Below the pieces are notes generated by a model. It was not told where the DNA came from. It saw only the letters and a list, made by a program, of their open reading frames with translations, and made no database searches. A stretch of DNA of 14,939 nt from DATDCY01 sp031406795 [NCBI: Candidatus Rokuibacteriota bacterium]. Lineage in GTDB: Bacteria > JAUVQV01. Within the stretch, counting starts at the first letter, position 1, and every line of letters starts with the position of its first letter. The position numbers and the translations under genes were made by a program. Shown piece by piece: positions 10,482 through 13,082 of this stretch. The DNA is taken from positions 1 through 14,939 of the forward strand of contig JANOHV010000080.1 in the NCBI GenBank assembly GCA_031406795.1, in the 5' to 3' direction.

Positions 10482-11267
10482 ATGCTGCTGAAGATTCGCG
10501 CCGCGCGTCGGCTGACCGAGGATTTTCAACTCCTCGAAGTCGACTGGCCCGCCGGCCTGCCCGAGCCGCTGCCCGGCCAGTTCGTCATGGTCCGCACCCG
10601 CGAAGGGACCGACCCGCTCTGGCGCCGGCCCCTGGGTGTGCACGACTTCCGGCGCGTCAGGGGCGCCGGGGTGCTCTCGCTGCTCTTCCAGATCGTCGGG
10701 CCGACCACGCACGATCTCGCGGGGCTCGCTCCCGGGGCGCCGCTCGATCTCCTCGGCCCGCACGGACGCGGGTTCAAAATCGACGCCGCAGAGATCTGGC
10801 TGGTTTCCGGAGGCCGTGGAGTCGCCCCGCTCTTCTACGTGGCGCGCCTGCTGCGCCGTACGGGCGTGCCCTGCCGTGCGTTCCTCGGGGGGCGCAGTGC
10901 CGGTCACATCCTGCGGGAGCGCGACTTGGTGCGCTTCGGCTGCCGGGTCGAGGTGGCCACCGACGACGGGAGCCGGGGGCGCCGGGGGCTGGTCACCGAG
11001 CCGCTCGAGCACGCGCTCTCCCGGCTCTCCGCGCGCCGGCGCGCGGCCGTGATGCTTCTGGCCTGTGGACCGCACGGGATGCTCAAAGCCGTGGCGGGAA
11101 TCGTCGCCGTGCACGGTGTTGCGGCGCAGGTCTCGGTCGACCCGTTGATGGCCTGCGGTCGCGGGCTCTGTCTCGGGTGCACCGTGGCCGCGCCGGGCGG
11201 CTACCGGCTGGCCTGCCAGCACGGGCCGGTCTTCAACGTCCGGGACCTGGACTGGGACGCCAGATGA
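10482..11267 (+). CDS. pyrK: dihydroorotate dehydrogenase electron transfer subunit PyrK
   Basis: PyrK carries FAD and a [2Fe-2S] cluster and passes electrons from PyrD to NAD+. From ATG 10482 the product has 261 residues. The N-terminal flavin barrel includes GQFVMVR and RRPLGVHDF, then the nucleotide-binding GGRGVAPL, and finally the cluster motif CGRGLCLGC plus the later C in YRLACQHGPVF, which is the typical PyrK spacing. In the flavin motif the usual RRPxS serine is glycine here. The start was chosen by family length; it lies 34 bases after pyrC and has no clear Shine-Dalgarno sequence. The open frame extends to 10389, but that would overlap pyrC with non-family residues. The stop overlaps pyrD by 4 bp, matching their role as one enzyme. 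Confidence 0.92.
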   Translation: MLLKIRAARRLTEDFQLLEVDWPAGLPEPLPGQFVMVRTREGTDPLWRRPLGVHDFRRVRGAGVLSLLFQIVGPTTHDLAGLAPGAPLDLLGPHGRGFKIDAAEIWLVSGGRGVAPLFYVARLLRRTGVPCRAFLGGRSAGHILRERDLVRFGCRVEVATDDGSRGRRGLVTEPLEHALSRLSARRRAAVMLLACGPHGMLKAVAGIVAVHGVAAQVSVDPLMACGRGLCLGCTVAAPGGYRLACQHGPVFNVRDLDWDAR

Positions 11268-12178
11268 CGCCGGATCTCAAGGTCAGGATCGGCGCCCTCG
11301 AACTGCCGAATCCGGTGCTGCTCGCCTCCGGAACCTGCGGGTACGGGCTGGAGATGATGCCGCACGGCAACATCGCCGGACTCGGCGCCGTGGTCGTCAA
11401 GGGGCTCTCGCTGCTGCCCTCCAAGGGCAACCCGCCGCCGCGCATCGTCGAGACGCCCTCCGGCATGCTCAACTCCATCGGGCTGGAGAACATCGGGCTG
11501 GAGGCCTTCCTGGCCGACAAACTGCCGAAGCTCAGGCACCTCGGCGCGCGGGTGATCGTCAATTTCTACGGCGGCTGCCGGGACGATTACCGGGAGTTGG
11601 CCGCGCGTCTCGACGGCGTCGAAGGGATCCACGCTCTGGAGATGAACATCTCCTGCCCGAATGTCGAGCGCGGTGGCGTGCTGATCGGCCAGGAACCGGA
11701 GGAGGTGCACAAGGCCGTTGCCGCCGTGCGCGGCGCGACGCGCCTGCCGCTGCTGGTCAAGCTGACGCCGAACGTCACCGACATCCGGCTGACCGCGCGC
11801 GCCGCCGCCGAAGCCGGAGCGGACGGTCTGACGCTGATCAACACGCTGCAGGGGATGGCCGTCGACGTCGAAACCCGTCGGCCGTCGCTCGCGCGCATCG
11901 TCGGCGGCCTCTCGGGGCCGGCCATCCGGCCGGTGGCGGTGCGCATGGTCTGGCAGGTGCGCCAGGCGATCGCGCTGCCGATCATCGGTTGCGGCGGCAT
12001 CTGGACGGCGCGCGACGCCCTGGAGTTCCTGATCGCGGGGGCGACGGCGGTGCAATTGGGGACGGTGAACTTCACGCACCCCGACCGCTGGATCGACGTG
12101 CTCGCGGGCATCGAGGCCTACCTCGATCGCCACAAATTCGAGCACGTCACCGACCTGATCGGCTCGCTGGAGAGTTAG
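11264..12178 (+). CDS. pyrD: dihydroorotate dehydrogenase, class 1B catalytic subunit
   Basis: PyrD oxidises dihydroorotate to orotate on FMN. The class 1B form works with PyrK and NAD+ rather than quinone or fumarate. The 304 residues show the class 1 catalytic cysteine in MNISCPNV (C131), LLASGTCGYG near the N-terminus, VKLTPNVTD, GLSGPAIRPVAVRMV and the FMN phosphate site GCGGI and AVQLGT. The adjacent, translationally coupled pyrK supports class 1B. The ATG at 11264 overlaps the pyrK stop (ATGA); the frame is open further upstream, but those residues shadow pyrK. It is the last gene of the pyr operon. Confidence 0.96.
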   Translation: MTPDLKVRIGALELPNPVLLASGTCGYGLEMMPHGNIAGLGAVVVKGLSLLPSKGNPPPRIVETPSGMLNSIGLENIGLEAFLADKLPKLRHLGARVIVNFYGGCRDDYRELAARLDGVEGIHALEMNISCPNVERGGVLIGQEPEEVHKAVAAVRGATRLPLLVKLTPNVTDIRLTARAAAEAGADGLTLINTLQGMAVDVETRRPSLARIVGGLSGPAIRPVAVRMVWQVRQAIALPIIGCGGIWTARDALEFLIAGATAVQLGTVNFTHPDRWIDVLAGIEAYLDRHKFEHVTDLIGSLES

Positions 12179-12204
12179 CCCGGGCCGCTCGGGAGGGCTT
12201 CTTT
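12177..12204 (+). terminator. terminator candidate after pyrD
   Basis: AGCCC (12177-12181, overlapping the pyrD stop) pairs with GGGCT (12195-12199), and TTCTTT (12199-12204) follows. The loop of 13 bases can also form the alternative stem CCCG/CGGG. A short stem but the right layout for intrinsic termination of the pyr operon. Confidence 0.45.
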
Positions 12205-12229
12205 CGCCTTGGCGGCGGTGGTGTCCTTG

Positions 12230-12279
12230 CCCTCTGCGAGCGAAGCGAGCGCAGGGTATGCGGCGGGCACCAGCCCGCC
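12230..12279. repeat. two small hairpins in the pyrD-pgsA gap
   Basis: CTGCG (12234-12238) pairs with CGCAG (12250-12254) around a loop containing AGCGAAGCGAG. A second hairpin has a perfect 7-bp stem, GGCGGGC (12262-12268) with GCCCGCC (12273-12279), and loop ACCA. Neither has a T-run on the plus strand. They resemble short palindromic intergenic elements; the function is unknown. Confidence 0.5.
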
Positions 12280-12313
12280 TCCGCGCACACTTCGCCCCTG
12301 CCTTGCCAGGACG

Positions 12314-12344
12314 AAAAAATCCGCTCCCGATCGGCACGGGCAGC
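12314..12344 (-). terminator. intrinsic terminator of the pgsA unit
   Basis: Read on the minus strand, GCT-G-CCCG pairs with CGGGAGC (12344-12323, one bulged base, seven-base loop), followed by GGA and six T (12319-12314). This is a good intrinsic terminator for transcripts coming from pgsA, about 185 bases past its stop. The structured repeat would therefore lie inside the pgsA 3' untranslated region. Confidence 0.65.
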
Positions 12345-12411
12345 TTGTTTGCGGAAAGACCAGGAGCGTCCCGGAGGCCTTGTCTTCGCTGCGCGGGGCG
12401 GACCGAATCGA

Positions 12412-12541
12412 CCGCAGGCCGCTGAGAAGGGTCCAGATGCCAGGCGGGCGAGTCCTGAGGAATGAGGCGTACGAGCAGTACGCCGCAGTGACGAAGGGCG
12501 AAGCCCAACGCCGCAGGTGGGGCCTTCTCAGCGGCCTGCGG
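12412..12541. repeat. 130-bp structured element with perfect 19-bp inverted ends
   Basis: CCGCAGGCCGCTGAGAAGG (12412-12430) is the exact reverse complement of 12523-12541. The stem can continue inward through CCA/TGG (12433-12435 with 12518-12520) and TGC/GCA (12438-12440 with 12513-12515). It encloses three hairpins: CAGG/CCTG (12441-12457), GGCGTAC/GTACGCC with loop GAGCA (12466-12484), and GGGC/GCCC with loop GAA (12496-12506). The result is cloverleaf-like. One plus-strand frame through it reads NEAYEQYAAVTKGEAQ, a peptide I associate with spurious ORFs from multicopy repeats in Geobacter-type genomes; this is memory, not a search. No transposase is encoded. The right arm runs into the end of pgsA. 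Confidence 0.8.
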
Positions 12542-13082
12542 CCGGGCGGGTGCCGGCGCGGTTGAGTCCGCGCCAGAGATACTGCAGCCCCGAGGCGATC
12601 GTCAGCGTGGCGGTCAACACGATGACCACCTGCCAGGTGCGCTCCACGGGCGCGTCGAGCAGCAGCAGCAGCGTCAGCACGAGCGTCGCGAACTGGCCGA
12701 GCATCGCCGCTTTTCCCGTGAGCGACGGCGCGATCTCCAGCCGGCCGTCGTGCAGGTAGAGGATGAGCGCCCCAAGTGAGATCAGCACGTCGCGGCTGAT
12801 CACGACGATCACGAACCAGGCCGGAATGGGGCCGATCAGCGCCAGCGTGACGAATCCGCTCACCGAGAGCAGCTTGTCCGCGAGCGGGTCGAGAAAGCTG
12901 CCGATCGCCGTCTTCTGATCGAGCCAGCGCGCCAGCAGGCCGTCGAGTGCGTCCGAGAGTGCGGCGAGCAACAAGACGACGAGCGCGAGGCCCGGCCGGC
13001 GGTACACGAGAAACGTCAGGAACAGCGGCAGCAGCAGCAGCCGCAGCGCTGTCAGCAGATTCGGCAGGTTCACGGCAGTCAC
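12528..13082 (-). CDS. pgsA: CDP-diacylglycerol-glycerol-3-phosphate 3-phosphatidyltransferase
   Basis: PgsA is a membrane enzyme that makes phosphatidylglycerol phosphate, the precursor of phosphatidylglycerol and cardiolipin. The 184 residues contain the full CDP-alcohol phosphotransferase motif DALDGLLAR-x8-G-x3-D-x3-D (D44, D47, G48, A51, R52, G61, D65, D69) and several hydrophobic helices. The first GTG (13082) overlaps the stop of the upstream gene as GTGA. A second GTG four codons in (13073) would give MNLPNLLTALR, the usual family N-terminus, and may be the true start. The last codons and the stop come from the right arm of the structured repeat. A related CDP-alcohol transferase cannot be excluded, but the N-terminal NLPNLLT favours PgsA. 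Confidence 0.9.
   Translation of the reverse strand: MTAVNLPNLLTALRLLLLPLFLTFLVYRRPGLALVVLLLAALSDALDGLLARWLDQKTAIGSFLDPLADKLLSVSGFVTLALIGPIPAWFVIVVISRDVLISLGALILYLHDGRLEIAPSLTGKAAMLGQFATLVLTLLLLLDAPVERTWQVVIVLTATLTIASGLQYLWRGLNRAGTRPAAGR

Follow-up and report, generated by a model that had tools for sequence, protein, structure and literature searches.

A widespread hairpin repeat with a conserved rod-shaped fold, target duplications, and replichore-dependent orientation in some genomes

A hairpin element lies between two genes in the window

The window, by which we mean the whole 14,939-nucleotide stretch of DNA analyzed here, contains an inverted-repeat element at positions 12412 to 12541 of the + strand. 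The element sits between genes for dihydroorotate dehydrogenase (11264 to 12178, + strand) and CDP-alcohol phosphatidyltransferase (12528 to 13082, − strand). The initial annotation described perfect 19-bp inverted ends, and these are indeed present: 19 perfect pairs between a left arm (12412 to 12430) and a right arm (12523 to 12541), both read on the + strand, form the closing stem, P1. An inverted-repeat search of the window paired 12409 to 12440 with 12513 to 12544 at 84%. The phosphatidyltransferase reading frame terminates inside the right arm, whose positions 12528 to 12541 encode its last residues together with the stop; a TGA directed inward is part of the end motif.

Folded as + strand RNA, the element has a minimum free energy of −95 kcal/mol (z = −8.6), equaled by 0 of 200 shuffles; the minus-strand fold has a z of −9.25 against shuffles. 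The + strand optimum is a single unbranched rod, and the minus-strand optimum is branched. From the outside in, the fold comprises P1, P1b, P2, P3, an internal loop, and a terminal hairpin, P4, all given here on the + strand. P1b pairs CCA-GA-TGC (12433 to 12440) with GCA-GG-TGG (12513 to 12520), the family consensus for the latter being GCA-GA-TGG. P2 joins 12446 to 12449 with 12503 to 12506, and P3 joins 12452 to 12456 with 12495 to 12499. The internal loop places the purine-rich GAGGAATGA (12457 to 12465) opposite GCAGTGACGA (12485 to 12494), and P4 occupies 12466 to 12484.

A search of the window against 4227 Rfam families gave no match at the gathering score, and matches below that score in 12200 to 12700 were at chance level only. 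Between 12150 and 12700, there are no sigma-70-like sites and no terminator-like sites (a stem plus a T run).

The element belongs to a widespread repeat family

Relatives were sought with a pattern taken in part from the window sequence. It matched at least 120 stretches in bacterial genomes. By record title, the matches listed were mainly Deltaproteobacteria, Desulfobacterales, Geobacter, Syntrophaceae, and plain Pseudomonadota, with one bin each labeled Nitrospirota and Anaerolinea. Two covariance models were built: R1 from the window plus 39 copies, with the structure drawn on the window row, and R2 from 39 other copies, with the window left out. R2 matches the window at 12413 to 12540 with 130.6 bits (E = 1.5e-31). 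The window element is real, and it is one copy of a family of hairpin repeats of 130 to 160 bases.

The initial annotation had expected many copies, and this holds in relatives. R1 finds 1 to 133 matches per genome in 19 genomes that were picked for having a copy, counts that may include antisense double hits; matches number 78 in genome G001, 133 in G003, and 57 in G238. In 198 genomes drawn from one phylum, with stricter filters and 17 candidates scored per genome, R1 matches 96 at E 0.001 (best E < 1e-10 in 66) and leaves 102 without a match. Within one order, 102 of 141 genomes match. Searching plasmids and phages with the element by blastn gave 0 matches, a scan of plasmids for the element's ends found none, and viral contigs contain one exact pattern match. 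The element has the traits of a miniature inverted-repeat transposable element (MITE), being about 130 to 160 bp long, devoid of a transposase gene, and multicopy in relatives, and pairs of genomes share orthologous copies. The family is a widespread mobile repeat. In our literature search, outside which lay the paper on the Chunjie repeat and the Geobacter supplements, four core strings occurred in only three papers, all of them unrelated to judge by title and opening of the abstract, and in no relevant one; a partial earlier description of the family is possible.

Particular loci show further features. Two genomes of different species have a copy in the groES-groEL interval, antisense to the operon (L303 and L304; gene names assigned by eye). 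L026 and L228, again by eye, are the same intergenic region in two genomes with the element in opposite orientations. Seven Desulfobacterales-type copies (L036, L037, L044, L062, L071, L096, and L117) carry a second palindrome, starting TTTACCC, nested at one and the same point of the core, which suggests that the composite has been propagated as a unit. Five weaker matches in Geobacter-type genomes (L309, L314, L319, L323, and L324) have the same layout and little core sequence in common, and may represent sister families with the same architecture.

Paired positions covary across the family

We next consider the fold in alignment A3, whose 100 model-found copies were aligned to the model, so that it leans toward the model's structure. 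In A3, the paired fraction of cells is 89.3%, and 38 of the 40 pairs vary on both sides, the compensatory changes for which the initial annotation had called; covariation is 0.405, with shuffles giving 0.143 and slides no more than 0.075. Three rows duplicate copies of the training alignment, A1, and a recount on the remaining 97 gives 89.2% pairing, 38 pairs varying on both sides, and covariation of 0.423 versus 0.147 (maximum 0.160 in 200 shuffles). In A1 itself, covariation is 0.278, with shuffles giving 0.130 and slides no more than 0.090. Across the 100 copies, 98.4% of cells in P4 are paired, and the two sides of the internal loop are conserved at 80 to 99% per position (GAGGAATGA) and 60 to 99% per position (GCAGTGACGA). 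P1b, with its CCA-GA-TGC and GCA-GA-TGG strands, possibly contains tandem G-A pairs. One position of the closing stem fails to pair in 63 of the 100 copies, with its neighbors changing in step. By eye, the stems of resident copies in G259 differ in sequence yet remain paired, and an identical internal mismatch often recurs.

What is conserved is a single long, irregular hairpin, or rod, best supported on the + strand. Three separate hairpins had been proposed within the closing stem, and this part of the initial annotation is not borne out: in one rendering of the two side hairpins, 47.6% of cells pair over 40 copies, compared with 48.8% in shuffles, whereas in the rod's inner helices, P2 and P3, 81.2% pair with covariation of 0.551 versus 0.232. 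An ordinary intrinsic terminator or a chance palindrome would account for the hairpin followed by a T run seen in many relatives and for copies near called genes. Such an origin has a negligible likelihood, given the lack of a terminator-like site in 12150 to 12700 of the window and the copy inside groESL, and it is refuted by the covariation in 100 copies together with the R2 match to the window.

Mismatches within the stems bear on which strand folds. On the + strand of the 100 copies, G-T mismatches outnumber C-A mismatches by 146 to 83, and by 54 to 5 in P1b plus P4; related copies are not independent in these counts. Without the training rows, the figures for 97 copies are 139 versus 83 and 50 versus 5. 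The excess of G-T over C-A favors the + strand as the folded strand. Helix P2 is reversed, with 9 G-T and 32 C-A in the 100 copies.

These data also bear on the possibility that the fold works as a structured RNA, either a cis-acting mRNA stability element or a small RNA, along the lines suggested for ERIC and NEMIS/Correia. Such an RNA would spread as a MITE, with selection acting on what resident copies transcribe. The structured-RNA suggestion in the initial annotation draws support from the compensatory changes and the + strand G-T excess, which persists without the training copies, and runs against the opposite balance in P2. Also consistent with such an RNA are the conserved purine-rich internal loops, where tandem G-A pairs may form, the G259 stems that diverge in sequence yet pair with a recurring mismatch, and the groES-groEL copy found in two species. 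Against it stand the zero Rfam matches at the gathering score with chance-level matches below it, the lack of a sigma-70-like or terminator-like site in 12150 to 12700, and the arrangement of neighboring genes, which among 177 copies are in tandem on the element's strand in 48 cases and on the opposite strand in 55. We regard a functional RNA as an unlikely explanation that nevertheless carries appreciable weight. On our best reading, selection maintains the fold, which would act either as the substrate of transposition or in a transcript.

Terminal repeats and target duplications point to a transposable element

Terminal inverted repeats are found in relatives. Many of these have a second, distal left repeat about 30 nt outside the first left arm that, by eye, pairs better with the right end. 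The fuller form, of about 155 bp, thus runs from a distal left terminal repeat through about 10 nt, an imperfect second left arm, and a structured core of about 85 nt to a right terminal repeat. The window copy is a short form with one left arm, core, and right arm; its left arm is the counterpart of the proximal left arm in relatives, and its right arm that of their right terminal repeat. Neither a distal left repeat nor a target duplication is visible in it, and we read it as best explained as an old, short-form copy.

Two classes of copies were distinguished by their ends, GATGG... in class A and CAGG... in class B. Exact 6-bp duplications of the form A-N4-T flank 19 of 39 class A copies (mean of 0.77 and maximum of 4 in shuffled pairings), and five copies have exact 7-bp duplications (shuffled mean of 0.13). 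In class B, 29 of 85 copies have exact 4-bp duplications of the form YTAR (shuffled mean of 6.55, maximum of 16) and 0 of 85 have exact 5-bp duplications. These counts include both L021 and L049, which represent one site shared by two genomes. Single-stem copies lacking the distal repeat make up a third set, found in Geobacter-type genomes. Longer direct repeats occur at the flanks of L002 and L064. In G259, a duplicated whole terminator-like hairpin flanks the element at 5 of the 26 places examined (7 + 19); these duplications measure about 19 to 30 bp, two of them with a mismatch, and reach 30 bp at L315, for example. Palindromy outside the short duplications was not found in classes A and B. 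Capture of arms from target hairpins is not favored as the source of all stem variation, because the single-stem arms of G259, G238, and G263 follow a common consensus, departures from which are compensated, as judged by eye.

Copy number, terminal repeats, target duplications, and compensatory changes thus bear out the proposal of a non-autonomous MITE- or REP-like element in Geobacter-type and other deltaproteobacterial genomes. A REP/RAYT or IS200/IS605-type element would move as single-stranded hairpin DNA by means of a Y1 (HUH) transposase. Sharp target duplications, which are not expected of the single-strand mechanism of Y1 (HUH) enzymes, are present here. Y1_Tnp is present in most of the genomes searched (10/11 and 5/6), as this type of mobility would predict; it gives 0 matches in the copy-rich G003 and G238 (133 and 57 element matches) and one weak match in G213. 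The position left unpaired in 63 of 100 copies, taken with the replichore orientation described below, recalls features described for IS608 in part of PMC5371812. In view of the target duplications and the two copy-rich genomes without a Y1 match, a RAYT/HUH mobilizer is disfavored, and we consider it very unlikely.

An IS1182-type transposase is a candidate mobilizer

Transposase searches covered PF05598 in 10 genomes, PF01797 in 11 and 6, PF13546 in 20, and PF01609 in 11, and flanks were scanned for the element's ends at L151 to L183 and L325 to L366, with L367 to L396 left out. The sole candidate worth pursuing to emerge from these searches and scans was an IS1182 element in G001. This genome carries a 525-aa transposase that matches NCBIfam NF033551 (IS1182) at 290.1 bits, above the cutoff of 270, and that contains the Pfam domains DDE_Tnp_1_6 and DUF772; the ends of the element, GAGACTGTCGAAAAA, form an inverted repeat around the transposase gene. 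DUF772 matches occurred in 3 of 10 genomes searched, G213 not being among the 10. G213, searched with PF01609 and PF13546, gave 0 matches to either.

Some of the family's ends resemble the right end of this IS1182 element. Class B ends, which come from other genomes, agree at 13/18 (p = 5e-5) and 12/18 (p = 0.0014) positions, the G016 end at 13/17 (p = 5e-5), and the G259 ends at 12/18 (p = 0.0008) and 13/18 (p = 0.0005). Class A ends, which are G001's own class, match weakly at 10/18 (p = 0.04) on the right and 9/18 (p = 0.21) on the left, and the window arm agrees at 9/16 (p = 0.07). All of these p values, derived from shuffles, are post hoc, because the G001 element was noticed during the flank scan for such ends and several ends were compared. 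Eight IS1182-like loci have clear ends in four cases, weak ends in one, and none by the criterion used in three; among seven such loci on plasmids, three are annotated as IS1182. A Pseudomonas plasmid IS1182 element is flanked by hairpin-like arms, and the IS1182-like elements at L404 and L429 adjoin sequences that resemble integron attC ends. No IS1182 relative was confirmed in viral contigs. IS1272, a member of the IS1182 family, targets stem-loops, according to parts of PMC5678879 and PMC4923244.

Other candidates were set aside. Transposase genes adjoining element copies proved to be IS5-type with different ends in G010 and ISNCY-type in G013, and G002 has an IS4-type gene with one single end nearby. 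No autonomous element with identical ends was found in any genome with fresh copies. In G003, an autonomous element between paired ends was rejected for L184 to L186, the three of seven stretches that were read, which hold ordinary genes between adjacent copies. A scan of the collected loci gave two end pairs with no core in between, at L080 (328 bp) and L187 (534 bp).

The mobilizing enzyme, for which the initial annotation had no proposal, can thus be given a candidate by likeness of ends, an IS1182-family transposase. Since the duplications of classes A and B are of different lengths, the two classes may not share a single enzyme. From the sequence comparisons, a link to IS1182 is plausible for class B and no more than possible for class A.

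Orientation follows the replichore in some genomes

The direction in which copies lie was examined relative to the chromosome. In G213, a single contig, orientation fits a diametric split into two replichores at 91 of 109 places, a value that 0 of 2000 permutations reach, and at 89 of 109 when the split is fixed at position 0. Agreement extends across match strengths, with 34/43 at 85 bits or above (p = 0.002) and 58/66 below 85 bits. Among the matches listed for each genome, orientation follows the replichore at 24/30 places in G263 (p = 0.02), 27/30 in G259 (15/18 at 60 bits or above; p = 0.05), and 41/51 in G238 (8/10 at 60 bits or above; p = 0.47). Likewise among the matches listed, agreement is not significant in G329 (9/11; p = 0.39) or G326 (18/28; p = 0.78). 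Orientation therefore follows the replichore in some genomes; the mechanism is our inference.

In G213 and G263, the GC skew at sampled loci fits an origin near position 0, and with the origin there the element's + strand runs against the leading strand; in G259, the skew is uninformative. As far as was checked, 15 of 18 G263 family loci are in genome orientation. On the element strand, GC skew is negative in 128 copies and positive in 84 (p = 0.005).

The neighbors do not support gene strand as the source of the bias. Among 214 copies, 177 have both neighbors called, and these are in tandem on the same strand in 48 and on the opposite strand in 55; in G213, the corresponding counts are 11 and 6. 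The coding majority is opposite to the element in 122 copies and the same in 92 (p = 0.047), so a small share of the bias may come from gene strand.

The orientation could in principle be kept by selection at a chromosome-organizing or fork-related site, instead of arising from an insertion bias. The bias in both the stronger and the weaker G213 matches would suit such a site. Its patchy distribution (102 of 198 genomes without a match and 1 to 133 matches per genome in 19 genomes) and the target duplications argue otherwise, and we hold this explanation to be highly improbable. Replication-linked insertion has precedents, including transposases that bind the beta clamp, as described in part of PMC5371812.

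Discussion

Taken as a whole, we favor, with a probability of about 0.6, a MITE related to IS1182 whose insertion is linked to replication and whose fold is kept by selection. The element would be a non-autonomous transposable element, inserting with 4- or 6-bp target duplications that are sometimes longer; in G259, some copies sit beside a duplicated whole hairpin. The resemblance of some element ends to those of IS1182 suggests an IS1182-type DDE transposase, acting in trans, as the likely mobilizer. Insertion is probably tied to replication forks, where single-stranded DNA would expose hairpins, and insertion at such sites would fix orientation by replichore.

A more specific proposal, which we advance tentatively and think doubtful, is that mobility depends on the folded + strand rod being recognized as a structure, either as a hairpin at the fork or as element RNA, by transposition machinery that inserts into other hairpins, the left and right ends being set by fork direction. 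The recognized features would be the two conserved internal loops and the closing-stem position that stays unpaired. Recognition of structure would leave the stem sequence free to drift as long as it remained paired, as the G259 copies show.

If the IS1182 link of the favored reading is true, hairpin-targeted transposition would be joined to replication direction, which could explain why paired arms are kept in small palindromic repeats despite sequence drift. The family is widespread, with matches in 96 of 198 genomes of one phylum, yet the window copy has no Rfam match. Such insertions can also give stop codons to adjoining genes, as in the window.

The element can be set beside several known systems. 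It shares with REP/RAYT systems the form of high-copy palindromes, and related HUH systems have replication-linked orientation, as described in part of PMC5371812; it differs in being longer, in having target duplications, and in occurring in genomes without a Y1 match. The Chunjie MITE of Geobacter uraniireducens likewise has dozens of copies in a Geobacter genome, at 178 to 235 bp, according to portions of PMC10969869, the comparison being by description and not by sequence. Aklujkar et al. reported intergenic multicopy sequences in G. metallireducens and P. carbinolicus, one set of which has ends that form inverted repeats (sections of PMC2700814 and PMC3543383); compared by description only, an overlap with the present family is possible.

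ERIC/IRU/RU-1 and Correia/NEMIS MITEs are similar in size (100 to 200 bp) and in having many copies whose transcripts would fold into long stem-loops, as outlined in part of PMC2229807, but they have other sequences and other hosts. Relative to ERIC and Correia/NEMIS, the fold of the present element was tested by covariation over many genomes, and replichore orientation is seen in some.

The IS1182 family, including IS1272 and TnSha1, differs from the element in that the latter has no transposase gene and has a conserved internal fold. IS1272 is described in passages of PMC5678879 as making no duplications, whereas many element copies have 4- or 6-bp ones. The two may be alike in an end motif of the type GRCTGT(C/T)GAAAAA, present in several members examined, and in the use of hairpin or palindrome targets, for which models in part of PMC5678879 include a stem-loop-duplicated outcome such as that seen in G259.
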